From NCBI GenBank assembly GCA_015065785.1, contig SVPR01000007.1, positions 1 through 35,633 of the forward strand: a stretch of DNA of 35,633 nt, read 5' to 3'. Positions 8,175 to 35,130 of this stretch are shown here, piece by piece (position 1 is the first letter of the stretch; the number at the start of each line of letters is the position of its first letter). The notes under the pieces are model-generated. The model did not search any database and was not told the origin of the DNA. It saw only the letters and a list, made by a program, of their open reading frames with translations. A program made the position numbers and the translations under genes. This stretch comes from Oscillospiraceae bacterium (GTDB lineage: Bacteria > Bacillota > Clostridia > Oscillospirales > Acutalibacteraceae).

Positions 8175-10376
8175 GTGACTGATTCTCAGGAAACAATAAC
8201 AGGAATAGTTGAAGATATTACTTTCCAGAATGCCCAGAATGGCTTTACAGTTCTTGATTTTTCAAGTGACGATGAGTTGTTTACGGCTGTTGGCGTTATG
8301 CCCGGAATTACTGCAGGCGAAACAGTTTCTTTAACAGGCTCTTTTATTATGCACCCAACCTTTGGCAGACAGTTAAAGGTCACCTCTTTTACACGAACTC
8401 TACCCGAAACAAGTGAACAGATTATAAAATATCTTTCCTCCGGTGTTATAAGAGGAATAGGCCCTAAAAAAGCACTTTCAATTGTTGAAGCCTTTGACAC
8501 TGACACATTGAATGTTATTGAAAACACACCCGAAAGACTTGCTGAACTCAAGGGAATTTCAATTGACCAGGCAAAAAATATCGGTGAAGAATTCAAAAAG
8601 CAATACGCAATGAGAACTGTTATGTTAGGCCTTGAAAAATATGGCTTAACACCCAACGAATGTGTAAGAATTTATAAAAAATTAGGCATTCAATCAGTTG
8701 AAATGGTTAAAGAAAACCCCTACTGTCTTTGTTCATTAGGCATTGGTATAAGCTTTGAAAAGGCAGAGATAATCGAAGAAAAATTAGAAGAAAAGCCTGT
8801 TCCCGAACACAGAATAAGAGAGGGCATTCTTCATGTTATGCGTTATAACCGCAATTCCCGTGGGCATACCTGTATTCCCCGTGAAAAGCTTTTAAAGCCG
8901 TGTGCAGATTTACTTAACACTAATGAAGATACAATTGATATTACAATTGATTCTCTCGTTTCTACTGCACAATTAAAATTGCATATAATTGATGGTACTG
9001 AATTTATATTTTTGCCATCCTCTTATAAGGATGAAAAAAGAATTGCAGAGAGAATGAGTGTTGTTGCAAAATTCCCACCACCAAGAATGAGTACTCTTGC
9101 ACAAACCATTGATGATATTGAATACGAAAACGACATTAAATATGAAGATTTGCAGAGAATGGCTATTGCCACCGCCGCTAACAAAGGTCTTTTAATTCTT
9201 ACAGGTGGTCCTGGTACGGGTAAAACTACTGCGATTAAAGGTATTATCAAGGTATTTGAAAAGCAGAATCTTGACATTGCTTTAGCTGCCCCCACAGGCA
9301 GAGCTGCAAAAAGAATGACTGAATTAACAGGCAGGGAAGCAAAAACTATTCATAGACTTTTAGAGGTTGAATGGGATGAAGATGACCGCCCTGTTTTCAG
9401 GCGTGACATAAAAAATCCTCTTGACTGCAATGCATTGATTTTAGACGAGTTATCTATGGTAGATATTTCACTTTTTGCAAGTCTTTTAGACGCTTTACCC
9501 TTAGGCTGCAGACTTATTTTAGTTGGTGACTCTGACCAGCTACCGCCGGTAGGGGCTGGTAATGTTCTGCACGATTTAATAAAAGCAGAAGTGTTACCTG
9601 TAATTGAGCTTAATAAGGTATTCCGTCAGGCTATGGAAAGTAAAATAGTAAGCAATGCACACAAAATTGTTGTGGGTGAAATGCCCGACTTAAAAAATGA
9701 TGGCAAAGACTTTTTCCATATGGAAAGGCAATCACCATTTTTAGCAACAGAAACAATTGCAGAGCTTTGTGCGGTAAGACTAAAAAAAGCTTATAACTGG
9801 GACCCGCTTTCAGATATTCAGGTTATTTGCCCCTCTAAAAAAGGTGAAACAGGCACTGCAAACTTAAATAAAATTTTACAACGCCTTTTAAACCCTGAAG
9901 ACGATAAGAAGCATGAGGTAATTGTTGCAGGTCAGTTATTCCGCGAGGGTGACAAGGTAATGCAGACCAAAAACAATTACAATATTGAATGGGAAAGCGA
10001 AGATGAAAAGGGCAACGGAATTTACAACGGTGATATTGGAATTCTTGAAAAAATCAATACCCAAAACGGACTTGTTACAATAAACTTTGACGGAAGAATT
10101 GCTGAAATAGCCACAGAAAATCTGACTGAATTAGATTTATCTTACGCAATAACCGTACATAAAAGTCAGGGTAGTGAATTCAAGGCGGTTATAATGCCTG
10201 TAACAGGAATTGTACCTGAGCTCTCATACCGAAACCTTTTGTACACTGCGGTAACAAGGGCAAAAGATATGTTAATTACCGTAGGTTCTGCTGATTTGGT
10301 TTATAAAATGACTGCTAATGATAAAAAAGCAAAGCGTTTTTCTGCATTAGCACACTTTTTAAAGGCGGAATTTTAA
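8175..10376 (+). CDS. recD2: ATP-dependent DNA helicase RecD2
   Basis: 733 residues, the usual size for the RecD2/RecD-like superfamily 1B helicases found in bacteria without RecBC partners. The N-terminal OB-like and helix-hairpin-helix region (about 1-200) includes GVIRGIGPKKA. Walker A is GGPGTGKTT at 344-352, Walker B is LILDELSMVD, followed by VGDSDQLPPVGAGN. C-terminal motifs are YAITVHKSQGSEF and LLYTAVTRAKD. It is a 5'-3' helicase with roles in DNA repair and replication fork processing in the cytoplasm. The start is GTG at 8175 with GGTGG about 7 nt upstream. Its stop overlaps the comF start by 1 nt (TAATG), so the two form one operon. Confidence 0.93.
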   Translation: MTDSQETITGIVEDITFQNAQNGFTVLDFSSDDELFTAVGVMPGITAGETVSLTGSFIMHPTFGRQLKVTSFTRTLPETSEQIIKYLSSGVIRGIGPKKALSIVEAFDTDTLNVIENTPERLAELKGISIDQAKNIGEEFKKQYAMRTVMLGLEKYGLTPNECVRIYKKLGIQSVEMVKENPYCLCSLGIGISFEKAEIIEEKLEEKPVPEHRIREGILHVMRYNRNSRGHTCIPREKLLKPCADLLNTNEDTIDITIDSLVSTAQLKLHIIDGTEFIFLPSSYKDEKRIAERMSVVAKFPPPRMSTLAQTIDDIEYENDIKYEDLQRMAIATAANKGLLILTGGPGTGKTTAIKGIIKVFEKQNLDIALAAPTGRAAKRMTELTGREAKTIHRLLEVEWDEDDRPVFRRDIKNPLDCNALILDELSMVDISLFASLLDALPLGCRLILVGDSDQLPPVGAGNVLHDLIKAEVLPVIELNKVFRQAMESKIVSNAHKIVVGEMPDLKNDGKDFFHMERQSPFLATETIAELCAVRLKKAYNWDPLSDIQVICPSKKGETGTANLNKILQRLLNPEDDKKHEVIVAGQLFREGDKVMQTKNNYNIEWESEDEKGNGIYNGDIGILEKINTQNGLVTINFDGRIAEIATENLTELDLSYAITVHKSQGSEFKAVIMPVTGIVPELSYRNLLYTAVTRAKDMLITVGSADLVYKMTANDKKAKRFSALAHFLKAEF

Positions 10377-11113
10377 TGAACAAACAAGAATTAAAAGATT
10401 TTTTAATTGCATTTTTATTCCCGAAGCGATGCAGATATTGCACCTGCGTTGTAAAGCACAATGAAGAAATCTGTAGTAAATGTGAGGATAATCTTCACGA
10501 AATAAGCGGAGAAATATGCTTTTTGTGTGGCTGCAGTAAAGAGGATTGCACCTGCAAAAATCATAAATCCTATTATGAAGCAATTTCTGCGCCATTTTAT
10601 TATGACGGCACAGCAGGTAATTCTATAAGACTTTTAAAATTCCAAAAGAAATCAGAAATAGCAGATGTTTTATCAGAAGAAATGGCAAAATGCTATGTAA
10701 ATAATCTCTCTGAATATTCAGTAGATTTAGTAACATTTGTGCCAATGCATAAGAAAAAACTGAAAGAACGCGGATTTAACCAGGCAGAGCTTTTAACCAG
10801 AAAAATGTGCGATTTATTAGACCTGCCCTGTGAAGAGCTTTTGACAAAATCTTACGAAACAGGCGACCAGCACTTTCTTGATGAAAATCTGAGAAAAGGT
10901 AACCTTTTAGGCGTTTTTTCAATTAACCCTGAAATTGATATTCTTGACAAAAGAATTCTTCTTTGTGACGACATTAAAACAACCGGCGCAACACTTGATG
11001 AATGTGCGAAGACGCTTTTAATCGCGGGTGCTTCGGATGTGGTTTGTTTAACGACGGCAGTTACGAGGAAGAAGTCAGGGACTAGAGTTCAGGGACTAGG
11101 GACTAGGGACTAG
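10376..11113 (+). CDS. comF: ComF family phosphoribosyltransferase-like protein
   Basis: 245 residues. The N-terminus is Cys-rich with zinc-ribbon pairs (CRYC near residue 19, CSKC, then CFLCGC and CTC). The C-terminal half is a type I phosphoribosyltransferase domain with the PRPP loop ILLCDDIKTTGAT. In naturally competent bacteria ComF helps single-stranded DNA uptake at the inner membrane; other family members have less clear roles. It is translationally coupled to recD2, so both may act on incoming or broken DNA. The natural family C-terminus probably ends near TTAVTRKK. The last 12 or so residues (SGTRVQGLGTRD) are encoded by a heptamer tandem array, and the TAG stop is part of a CTAGGGA unit. 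Confidence 0.88.
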   Translation: MNKQELKDFLIAFLFPKRCRYCTCVVKHNEEICSKCEDNLHEISGEICFLCGCSKEDCTCKNHKSYYEAISAPFYYDGTAGNSIRLLKFQKKSEIADVLSEEMAKCYVNNLSEYSVDLVTFVPMHKKKLKERGFNQAELLTRKMCDLLDLPCEELLTKSYETGDQHFLDENLRKGNLLGVFSINPEIDILDKRILLCDDIKTTGATLDECAKTLLIAGASDVVCLTTAVTRKKSGTRVQGLGTRD

Positions 11114-11475
11114 GGATCAGAAATCAGGGAATAGAAAATGCTGAGTGCTGAATTAAGGGTCTGCGACGCAAAAATAATTGAAAATGGAAAATTGAAAATT
11201 GAAAATTTAGGGGCTACGCCGTAATTATAATAATTGGTTATAATGGTAAACTGACTTTTTCATTTATACTAATTACAAATATTAAGATATAAAAATAAAA
11301 ATTCTATCATTTTTAGTTTATATAAAACTTCAAATGATAGAATTTCTTGCTTTTATGGATAATTATTATTGCCGACCGCAGGTCCCACAATTTTCAATTT
11401 TCCATTTTCAATTTTTAATTTTTAATTTTCACTTATAAGTCTCTATTCTCCGTTCCCTGATTTCTGAACTCAGCT
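11075..11475. repeat. Heptamer/hairpin intergenic element, copy A (comF / membrane protein gap)
   Basis: The left side starts with eleven uninterrupted 7-nt units (11075-11151; TCAGGGA, CTAGGGA, TCAGAAA, ATAGAAA, ATGCTGA, GTGCTGA types), then mini-hairpin GTC-TGC-GAC (11159-11167). A second array of ATTGAAA units (11177-11204) leads to mini-hairpin GGC-TAC-GCC (11212-11220) and AATTATAAT. The core hairpin spans 11299-11345 (AAATTCTATCATTT paired with AAATGATAGAATTT). The right side is the inverted counterpart: mini-hairpin GACC-GCA-GGTC (11374-11384), TTTCAAT arrays (11389-11430), CTTATAAG, then TTTCTGA/TCCCTGA-type units to about 11468. It fills the 3'-3' gap and runs into both flanking coding sequences. 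No ORF lies inside. Confidence 0.8.
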
Positions 11476-12224
11476 TGAATTTCTTGAGCTTGTTGTGTAT
11501 CAAAGGTAGATTGAAGTGGCGCCCCGAGCTGTGCTTCTCTTTTTTTCTTTTGATTTTTATTTATTACTAAACCAATAATACCACCGATAATTGCAGCTGC
11601 AATTATAATCATTGGCACGAATATATCGAAATCATCTTCAATTGTTCCTGCAGGTGCTATTGTATCCTTTGATGGCATAAGCTCATCCTCATTCATTTTA
11701 AAGGTATCTGCTATTGCATCAAGCTCGTCTATTGTATCCATATTATCTGCTGTAAGTGCAATTGTATAAACGAAATCAACACCTGCAAACTGATACATTT
11801 TCTGATAAAATACTGTATCCTGAATCTTTGTTTTAATAACTGATATAAGTGCTGTGTAGCCACTTGAAAGGTCTTTGCTATCTACTGAAACAACTTCAAT
11901 ATCTGCTTTGATTTGTTGTTGTGCATATTGTGAAGTCATTGTTGCTTTAAATACTTTTGCATAAGAATCATAATTCTCTTGTGTTAAATCTTTAAGACAC
12001 TCGTTGTCCGTATTTTCAACATAATTAACAGTTATATTTGTAACGCCATCGGCTTTTACAAAATAGAACAAAACATCTGTACTGTTTTCTTTCACATACT
12101 CGTACTCATCGCCTACATCAATAGAAAAGTGTGAATCCTCACTAAAAACATTAGCAGCACTTACACTGATAACTGATGTAAAAATCATAATTGCTACAAC
12201 TAATAAAATACTTACCTTTTTCAT
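11433..12224 (-). CDS. Unrecognised exported single-pass membrane protein
   Basis: 263 residues from ATG 12224; an upstream in-frame ATG at 12290 exists but AAGGAG sits 7 nt before 12224. A signal peptide (residues 1-24, MKKVSILLVV to VSA) is followed by an extracellular domain of about 180 residues with no family I recognise. A transmembrane helix follows near 203-225 (IFVPMIIIAAAIIGGIIGLV), then a short basic cytoplasmic tail (NKNQKKKREA). The topology is type I. The last 11 or so residues (FRNQGTENRDL) are encoded by heptamer units of the adjacent repeat element. It has its own promoter and sits downstream of the CBS transporter on the same strand, separated by a terminator. No function is assigned. 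Confidence 0.75.
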   Translation of the reverse strand: MKKVSILLVVAIMIFTSVISVSAANVFSEDSHFSIDVGDEYEYVKENSTDVLFYFVKADGVTNITVNYVENTDNECLKDLTQENYDSYAKVFKATMTSQYAQQQIKADIEVVSVDSKDLSSGYTALISVIKTKIQDTVFYQKMYQFAGVDFVYTIALTADNMDTIDELDAIADTFKMNEDELMPSKDTIAPAGTIEDDFDIFVPMIIIAAAIIGGIIGLVINKNQKKKREAQLGAPLQSTFDTQQAQEIQAEFRNQGTENRDL

Positions 12225-12261
12225 TTTAATACTCCTTAAATAAAATATATTTTTCTTGCTT

Positions 12262-12290
12262 ATAATAGCACAGAAGAAAGCAAAAATCAA
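12262..12290 (-). promoter_or_regulatory. Promoter of the membrane protein gene
   Basis: On the minus strand, TTGATT (12285-12290), a 17-nt spacer ending TGTGC, and TATTAT (12262-12267): an extended -10 type sigma-A promoter. Confidence 0.65.
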
Positions 12291-17616: not shown

Positions 17617-17652
17617 AAAAAACCTGTAGAGGAAACACTCTGCAGGTTTTTT
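17617..17652 (+). terminator. Intrinsic terminator after PFOR
   Basis: The stem AAAAAACCTGTAGAG pairs with CTCTGCAGGTTTTTT through one wobble pair, with a 6-nt loop GAAACA and a T run. It lies 13 nt after the stop codon. Confidence 0.9.
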
Positions 17653-17654
17653 TA

Positions 17655-18007
17655 ATTAAAAATTAAAAATTGAAAATTGAAAATTGCGGGGCTACGCCGT
17701 AATTATAAAAATGCAGAAGGCAGAGTGCAGAATGCAGAATTTCGGAACTGCGTTGGCAATTATAATTAAATAACAAAAATATAAGTTCTATCATTTAAAG
17801 TTTTTCGTAAACTAAAAATGATAGAACTTTTTCTGTTTCCTGCTTTCTGTTTCCTGTTTCCTGACCACTGACTTACTGACTCACTGACCACTGGTACAAA
17901 TGATAGAACTTGTTGTTTTTATTCAATTAAATATAATCAAGGCGAAGCCTTCCGAAATTTTCAATTTTCCATTTTCAATTTTCAATTCAAAATAGACTTC
18001 TGCATTC
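17655..18007. repeat. Heptamer/hairpin intergenic element, copy B (PFOR / thrS gap)
   Basis: The left side has ATTGAAA units (about 17661-17685), mini-hairpin GGC-TAC-GCC (17690-17698), AATTATAA, then ATGCAGA units (17711-17738) and mini-hairpin AAC-TGC-GTT (17746-17754), followed by AATTATAATT. The core hairpin is 17782-17829 (AAGTTCTATCATTT paired with AAATGATAGAACTT). The right side repeats AAATGATAGAACTT after a 68-bp insert, then has mini-hairpin AAGGC-GAA-GCCTT (17939-17951), inverted TTTTCAA-type units to about 17988, and a fragment complementary to ATGCAGA next to the thrS stop. No ORF lies inside. Confidence 0.8.
17816..17911. repeat. Heptamer array inserted in the core between 14-bp direct repeats
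   Basis: AAATGATAGAACTT occurs at 17816-17829 and again at 17898-17911. Between them (17830-17897) is an array built from CTGTTTC/CTGACCA-type units, mostly 7 nt with two 8-nt units. Copy C has only one AAATGATAGAACTT at the same place, directly followed by the shared GTTGTTTTTATT. Confidence 0.8.
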
Positions 18008-19994: not shown

Positions 19995-20240
19995 TGCTTC
20001 ACCCCATAAATATGGGATGAAGCAATAATCTACTCCACGGTTCCACCCAAATTGCAGTATAATACTGCCACTCAAGGAATGTCTTAACGCGACACAGACG
20101 GCTCTATTTATCGTAATATATACACTTCATAAAGCACTCATAAGTGGTTTTCAAAACGGCGTAACTCGTGTCTTTCACCAACCGACACGCTCTCTGAAGA
20201 AACTGACCGTCCCTACTCTCTTAATCATAGATTTGTTCTA
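19995..20240 (-). promoter_or_regulatory. Threonine T-box riboswitch leader of thrS
   Basis: On the minus strand the leader has stem I starting near 20225 (AGAGAGTAGGGACGG). The likely specifier codon is ACC (Thr) at 20146-20148, followed by a purine. The T-box sequence GGGTGGAACCGTGG is at about 20034-20047. The intrinsic terminator hairpin TGCTTCATCCCAT/ATGGGGTGAAGCA is followed by a T run at 19995-20024. Uncharged tRNA-Thr should favour the antiterminator and turn thrS on. The ACC assignment is inference from position. Confidence 0.92.
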
Positions 20241-34865: not shown

Positions 34866-35125
34866 AAGTGCTGAGTGCTGAGTGCTGAATGCAGAATTAT
34901 GGGTCTGCGACGCTATTATAATTTAATAACAAAAAGCTAAGTTCTATCATTTAAAGTTTTTTGTAAACTAAAAATGATAGAACTTGTTGTTTTTATTGAC
35001 TAATAATTATAATCAAGTCCGCAGGACTTCCGAAATTCTGCACTCAGCACTCAGCACTCAGCATTCAGCACTTTATAATAGCGTTGCAGACCATTTTCTC
35101 TTATCTCTTATCTATTCTCTCTTAT
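34866..35125. repeat. Heptamer/hairpin intergenic element, copy C (GH125 / hydrogenase gap)
   Basis: This is the cleanest copy. The left array has GTGCTGA units and ATGCAGA (34868-34895), then mini-hairpin GTC-TGC-GAC (34903-34911) and ATTATAATT. The core hairpin is 34939-34985 (AAGTTCTATCATTT paired with AAATGATAGAACTT). The right side has mini-hairpin AAGTCC-GCA-GGACTT (35015-35029), an inverted CACTCAG-type array (35037-35072), TTATAAT, a weaker mini-hairpin (35083-35091, GTC-TGC-AAC on the minus strand), and an outer array of TCTCTTA units (35097-35127). No ORF is credible inside. Confidence 0.82.
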
Positions 35126-35130
35126 CCAAC

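Follow-up and report, generated by a model that had tools for sequence, protein, structure and literature searches.

We conclude, with a probability of roughly two in three, that the three repeat copies in the window (the whole stretch of DNA analysed, 35,633 nt) are non-coding, MITE-like derivatives of putative palindromic mobile elements whose coding members carry a gene of the S23/IVP family (PF05635/TIGR02436). We observed a repeat family with a definite unit grammar, S23 genes inside that grammar at some loci, and arm units that were swapped on an orthologous core. The placement of S23 genes between inverted heptamer arrays, found in this genus, in cyanobacteria and in others, suggests a novel type of mobile element. 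Within a 2.24-Mb draft genome that is 83.6% complete, the window forms contig C29, and each of its copies, A, B and C, lies between convergent protein genes.

Anatomy of the window copies and their repeat family

Copy C (34867-35126) is an imperfect palindrome. Around a core hairpin it carries 7-nt arrays in inverted orientation, AATTNNGG junctions, mini-hairpins and ATTATAAT. Blastn aligned 195 bases of it with its own reverse complement at 76%, and the two arms can be aligned from array to core. The left heptamer array (AGTGCTG/AATGCAG, plus strand, 34867-34898, from TRF and the sequence) ends in AATT and is complementary to the right array; its AGTGCTG tandem stretch covers 34867-34892. The left unit (plus strand, 34895-34922), delimited by sequence and unit grammar, consists of AATT-AT-GG (34895-34902), the mini-hairpin GTC-TGC-GAC (34903-34911) and ATTATAAT (34915-34922). 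The core hairpin, AAGTTCTATCATTT ... AAATGATAGAACTT, occupies 34939-34985 without an assigned strand; it was identified by folding, its arms align with each other, and the hairpin scan did not flag it as terminator-like. On the right, the inner unit (minus strand, 35006-35037, from the sequence) carries ATTATAAT (35006-35013), the mini-hairpin AAGTC-CGCAG-GACTT (35015-35029, scanned as 6 bp with a 3-nt loop) and CC-GA-AATT (35030-35037), and it is followed by a GCACTCA array (minus strand, 35040-35072, TRF). Stretches similar to this right array occur in three Nostoc plasmids, and a phage origin was set aside, copy C having 0 matches in a phage collection.

The first-pass annotation had described copy C as carrying the same type of unit in opposite orientation on both sides of a core hairpin, and we found every named part at 34867-35126. 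Its second right unit is indeed present outside the first (minus strand, 35073-35126, from the sequence and TRF), comprising TTATAAT (35073-35079), GTT-GCA-GAC (35083-35091) and a TCTCTTA array (35097-35126); this unit is degenerate, however, and its non-canonical junction lacks a clean CCNNAATT. Copies A (11077-11434) and B (17649-17992), neither assigned a strand, are built from the same modules. Copy A is non-coding, with GGC and GACC end hairpins and an asymmetric spacer, and copy B has a heptamer insert in its core, flanked by a 14-nt direct repeat. The two left units reported for each of these copies were present, together with one right unit each, and counting by eye gave the same nine array-hairpin junctions over the three copies. 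As side observations, the C-terminal codons of both genes beside copy A (10376-11113, plus strand; 11433-12290, minus strand) are apparently heptamer arrays, and the window's minus strand holds a T-box leader at 20010-20237 (RF00230 in Rfam, 115.8 bits).

Copy C is a member of a dispersed family. A blastn search of its own genome gave 103 alignments, about 40 distinct places by eye once both-strand self-hits and fragments were set aside. The unit pattern AATTNNGG-N8-20-ATTATAA matched this genome 188 times, whereas its reversed control matched 7 times. Among relatives, the corresponding pairs of counts were 70 and 6 in G001, 63 and 8 in G018, 50 and 9 in G021, 49 and 9 in G002, 47 and 8 in G006, 34 and 3 in G007, 24 and 8 in G013, and 20 and 3 in both G003 and G005. 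The other 70 genomes were mostly near control level; G036, from another genus, had 10 matches against 1, six of the 10 being identical. A stricter pattern matched 49 of 250 genomes of the bacterial family, mostly once or twice, and outside the genus it matched G095 11 times, G280 8 times and G036 6 times. The 49 stretches returned by a scan of genome contigs for GGC-stem units were labelled Clostridia, Oscillospiraceae, Clostridiaceae or Eubacterium throughout, and the host animals of these MAGs, where named, were goat, sheep, yak and water deer. For 14 of 16 innermost inverted unit pairs in the window and 400 kb of its own genome, the distance was 140-221 nt. The copies are thus related genome-wide, and an Rfam scan of the element gave 0 matches at gathering score, with weaker matches far below the cut-offs; neither of the two outcomes named beforehand as refuting, unrelated copies or a fit to a named repeat family, was encountered. 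Two candidate traits were set aside. We do not claim one array type on both sides as a special trait of non-coding copies, since it held in only 8 of 14 inner pairs, and a purine bias of the 5' arm, noticed by eye, was dropped because it is not universal.

The mini-hairpins vary in their stems around a constant loop. CTNCG was present in 91 of 148 distinct unit strings, and the remaining 57 look diverged or due to chance. The next two pairs outside the C-G closing pair were Watson-Crick in 84 and 86 of the 91, with all four pair types represented, whereas positions slid by one or two bases as a control gave Watson-Crick pairs in 6-44 of 91. The units comprised 28 hairpin strings, 25 of which have a pair beyond the closing one. 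We conclude that stem positions covary while the loop stays fixed; read on one strand, this loop is C-GNA-G. In the same genome's 400 kb, C-GNA-G loops closed 15 of 23 triloop hairpins near arrays and 10 of 288 elsewhere (stems of at least 5). GNA-loop DNA hairpins are described as extraordinarily stable and nuclease-resistant (excerpt of PMC4686876), and we infer that the mini-hairpin structure acts as single-stranded DNA.

The arrays are dominated by one period. In the 400 kb, which were chosen irrespective of the elements, 53 of 83 tandem arrays had period 7 and 11 had period 14 (together 64 of 83), whereas a Markov-2 shuffle of this sequence contained 1 array. Period 7 also accounted for 13 of 19 arrays in G018 (2 more having period 14), 6 of 6 in G006 and 3 of 6 in G009. 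In 40 of the 48 cases in which an array came within 12 nt of a CTNCG hairpin, the array was closer on the 5' side. The pattern seen in the window is beyond chance.

S23 genes between inverted heptamer arrays

The window contains no S23/IVP gene. Elsewhere in the same genome, a unit pair 686 nt apart encloses an ORF of PF05635/TIGR02436, the 23S-rRNA-intervening-sequence or four-helix-bundle family, which is related to the solved chain 2RLD. An S23 ORF also lay beside a unit at two near-identical loci among 49 fetched by the unit pattern. PF05635 was detected in 20 of 22 genomes of the genus, with 11 matches in the genome of the window, compared with 0 of 14 control genomes.

We examined 85 of 93 S23 loci, those in which the gene was located and the flanks were long enough. 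Arrays of period 7 or 14 occurred on both sides of 20 of these 85 genes but of only 10 of 812 control genes; arrays of other periods stood beside 3. In all 21 loci flanked by arrays on both sides, a set obtained with a slightly different filter, the two arrays were one heptamer in inverted orientation with at most one mismatch (17 without any), and they also matched in direct orientation in only 2 of the 21. The heptamer itself varied by locus and included AATGCGA, AATGCAG, AATTCGT, AATTAAA, AATTGAA, AGTGCTG, AATTAGG, AATTGCA, GTTAGGT and others. Flanks that follow the strict unit grammar on both sides were rarer; they occurred at 6 of 39 S23 genes in the nearest subfamily, at 0 of 46 in the remainder and at 3 of 812 controls. 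An inverted-repeat test with 200-nt flanks and a threshold score of 18 was passed by 33 of 90 S23 loci in the genus (27 with period 7 and 2 with period 8) and by 6 of 816 control genes (2 with period 7). The other 57 genus loci did not pass. These counts are not fully independent, because L280 and L353 are one gene, L140 and L158 are near-identical and several loci are orthologues. Unit number did not track S23 number: G020 has 15 unit matches and 11 S23 matches, and G013 has 24 and 2. The S23 genes are under purifying selection, with pN of 0.00-0.18 against pS of 0.31-0.77 and pN below pS in 8 of 8 pairs.

Complementarity of the flanks did not continue outside the arrays, since 136 of 500 permutations over 42 loci reached the observed mean. 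This makes simple insertion into a hairpin loop less likely, and insertion into pre-existing loops, by analogy with rRNA intervening sequences (IVSs), is accordingly not our preferred explanation. At three sites (L293/L292, L308/L291 and L351/L269), a different S23 subfamily with a different heptamer occupies the same position in different species. S23 elements also lie between smpB and an apparent tmRNA gene, identified by eye, in three species (L280, L296 and L309), where the heptamers are similar across the three; a fourth species (L285) has a remnant only. A second kind of S23 locus (L302-L305 in the genome of the window; L341, L348 and L349 of the L339-L356 region; L324) has short words alternating with hairpins upstream of the gene. 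These 7-8-nt words are GCGATAT, GTGAAAT, ATATCAC and ATGAAAT, and the hairpins have differing stems and many TNC/GNA-like loops.

The same layout was found on plasmids of other phyla. A tblastn search with two S23 subfamilies against 72,556 plasmid records hit 31 and 25 records, mostly cyanobacterial, and we sampled 22 of these 56 by spread and rank before their flanks were seen. Inverted arrays surrounded 16 of the 22 S23 genes, the period being 7 at 15 of them and 8 at the remaining one, whereas among 75 other ORFs from two stretches of Nostoc plasmids 0 passed the inverted-repeat test. The 16 positive loci were 13 from cyanobacteria and one each from Bernardetia (Bacteroidota), Monoglobus (Bacillota) and Gemmatirosa (Gemmatimonadota). 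The six that failed were four cyanobacterial loci, Treponema, in which arrays are visible below the threshold, and Chlorohelix. Inverted arrays of a locus-specific heptamer thus surround S23 genes in four phyla. At six loci on cyanobacterial and clostridial plasmids (L360, L363, L364, L369, L372 and L376), the S23 gene lies between linked genes: cas2/cas1 and cas6/cas4 at two loci each, hsdS/hsdR and nrdB/nrdA. Such splitting of linked gene pairs is as expected of an insertion.

Orthologous sites, a proposed mechanism and its rivals

Coding and non-coding forms can be compared directly at one orthologous site. Locus L316 of G002, a sister species, and locus L087 of the genome of the window have common flanking genes. 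Both ends of L316, which is coding, carry AATTAAG/AATTGAG arrays; L087 is non-coding, is bounded on each side by AATTGAA arrays and has mini-hairpins other than those of L316. Non-coding copies match the flanks of coding elements beyond the arrays, as in L095 against L310 (80% over 110 nt). The right core arm of copy C scored above all 300 shuffles against the leaders of L301, L226 and L310, but not against those of L300 and L322; its left core arm did not exceed the shuffles against any of the five coding leaders.

For 16 copies of the genome of the window, we searched coding ends in G018, G021 and G001, which yielded 30 site comparisons at 14 sites, read by eye. The core hairpin was present in 12 and absent in 17, and one ran off a contig end. 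Empty sites, which had been proposed as a check, do occur in these relatives. The shortest, L202 of G001 against L023, has a gap of 64 instead of 318 nt and contains an ordinary terminator-like hairpin; no target duplication was seen by eye at this site. Other sites retain the element in altered form. L015 and its G018 counterpart L201 have a common core with both arm units different, and L028 differs from L198 of G018 in the left arm alone. Copy B and L130 of G021 are one common element, to which copy B adds the heptamer-rich insert with its flanking 14-nt direct repeat, one left heptamer and two right heptamers. These three comparisons indicate that modules swap and that arrays change by whole heptamers. 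We also noted that a convergent gene pair of relatives (L192, L194, L195, L197 and L200) is split in the genome of the window (L003 and L011), with an element beside each half, possibly through rearrangement between elements. Taken together, the dispersed multi-copy family, its presence and absence at orthologous sites and its covarying hairpins support the initial proposal of a non-autonomous mobile or structured element.

A full coding element in this genus has an S23 gene between two mini-hairpins, preceded by a heptamer array and AATTNNGG and followed by CCNNAATT and the same array inverted. The elements would fold through their arms into a long stem, inside which would lie two mini-hairpins together with a foldback core or the S23 gene. 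S23, an oligomer, probably binds the folded element and may be needed for its spread; a solved relative from Xanthomonas is a pentamer (excerpt of PMC4990558). Cutting could be performed by host enzymes or by some other nuclease. The non-coding copies would be passengers, moved in trans now or formerly and reshuffled through recombination between copies. Heptamer number would be set by slippage, and the arms would be kept alike by polymerase template switching between them, which is the process of quasipalindrome correction.

Several other explanations have to be weighed against derivation from S23-carrying elements. Heptamer palindromes could arise on their own at hairpins close to the ends of genes, by slippage and template switching, and serve as targets into which S23 elements insert. 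Arrays without S23, such as that at the comF end of G001 and those of most non-coding copies, fit this idea, as does the likeness of the smpB-ssrA heptamers across three species, as if set by the site. We nevertheless consider it unlikely, because the three comparable sites that lack S23 (L257, L254 and L285) hold only degenerate one-sided remnants and because such inverted repeats are so rare around other genes (0 of 75 Nostoc ORFs and 6 of 816 genes of the genus). A second idea is that the copies are immobile 3'-end structures, two-way terminators or RNA-stability elements, that spread by recombination with S23 as an incidental passenger. By crude ORF calls, the neighbours of the 28 copies in this genome that have both are convergent in 14 cases, tandem in 13 and divergent in 1, and at several sites relatives have an ordinary terminator in place of the element. 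The core hairpin's unremarkable result in the terminator scan, however, and the S23 link with its inverted locus-specific heptamers, which this account leaves unexplained, make it improbable.

Known enzymes offer two further routes. Spread through an RNA copied in trans by a reverse transcriptase has some appeal, since the Avd protein of diversity-generating retroelements is a relative of S23. An RNA route was also reportedly proposed by Elhai in 2008 for cyanobacterial small dispersed repeats, which are reported to lie inside heptamer arrays. RVT_1, however, was detected in 4 of 22 genomes of the genus, including unit-rich G002 and G006, and was not found in the unit-rich genome of the window, G001, G018 or G021, and we regard this route as scarcely credible. 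Transposition of hairpin pairs by a RAYT or IS200-type HUH enzyme, as suggested in the first-pass annotation, is only marginally less doubtful and in our view very improbable. In its favour are the REPIN-like arrangement of two inverted hairpin units with a spacer between them (excerpt of PMC3116915) and the presence of one RAYT gene in the genome. That gene is the only Y1 match there, assigned to RAYT by NCBIfam (84.5 bits, cut-off 80), and it lies amid other repeats. Y1_Tnp occurred in 9 of 22 genomes of the genus, two of these below the family cut-off, and had 0 matches in unit-rich G001, G006, G013 and G021, although several drafts are only about 80% complete (several 81-82%), so that single gene absences are weak. 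These results do not support the HUH proposal. Around the RAYT gene itself (L061:1080-2960, G000:C9), we observed GGGGACGGTTCT-type palindromes and octamer arrays; these repeats stand in tandem copies of about 200 nt and form a separate repeat family.

Comparison with known systems

We compared the elements with systems that resemble them in part. In REPINs and BIMEs with their RAYTs (excerpt of PMC3116915), two inverted hairpin units likewise surround a spacer and are dispersed between genes, and the spacing of our inverted unit pairs agrees with such an arrangement. The present elements differ in having variable stems on one loop grammar, heptamer arrays and no RAYT in several rich genomes, and the RAYT of the genome of the window is not flanked by the same repeats. 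A Y1 transposase with matching ends, as in IS200/IS605, was likewise not found in this genome, where the single RAYT-type Y1 gene has unrelated flanks. Classical MITEs of DDE transposons have fixed terminal inverted repeats and a target-site duplication; the ends of these elements are arrays that differ by locus, and they may nonetheless be of this type. To our knowledge, ends that differ between insertions yet agree within one insertion are unlike those of any known transposon, and they raise a direct question about the copying of palindromic DNA.

Intervening sequences of 23S rRNA with an S23 ORF also have complementary ends that form a long stem, and they have been proposed to be mobile, with an origin called unclear (excerpt of PMC4990558). 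An S23 ORF lies inside our coding relatives but not inside the window copies, and complementary termini were found at the genus and plasmid S23 loci that passed the inverted-repeat test. Known IVSs sit in rRNA helices; the present elements are intergenic and multi-copy, with heptamer-array ends and mini-hairpins, and many are non-coding. The window copies lie between protein genes rather than in 23S rRNA, and 11 loci gave no Rfam rRNA match.

Heptamers in intergenic DNA have been described before. Cyanobacterial STRR heptamers form similar 7-nt arrays, reported without a known cause (excerpt of PMC4692102); a link to S23 is absent from that excerpt, and we find it in the sampled cyanobacterial plasmids. 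The intergenic TAACTGA heptamers of Beggiatoaceae have a patchy distribution in Gammaproteobacteria, Cyanobacteria and Bacteroidetes, but they are described as direct repeats, mostly before start codons in one genome, and "S23" and "four helix bundle" are not among the terms in the excerpted text (PMC4679880). S23/four-helix-bundle genes are widely annotated with no known function (excerpts of PMC4692102 and PMC4990558). Within the open-licence PMC literature, preprints being outside its scope, we recognised no report linking S23 to heptamer arrays.

Because REPIN/RAYT and IS200/IS605 each fail a tested feature and the IVSs differ in location, we regard the class as new, although each of its parts has known relatives. 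A broader proposal, to which we give even odds, is that S23/IVP genes are the cargo of a widespread mobile class whose ends are self-renewing inverted arrays of locus-specific heptamers, with S23 as the required hairpin-binding factor; clostridial hairpin repeats, cyanobacterial heptamers and 23S IVSs would then be three faces of this class. One element class would in that case join the cyanobacterial heptamers, the S23 genes and the origin of the 23S IVSs, and each would become testable.
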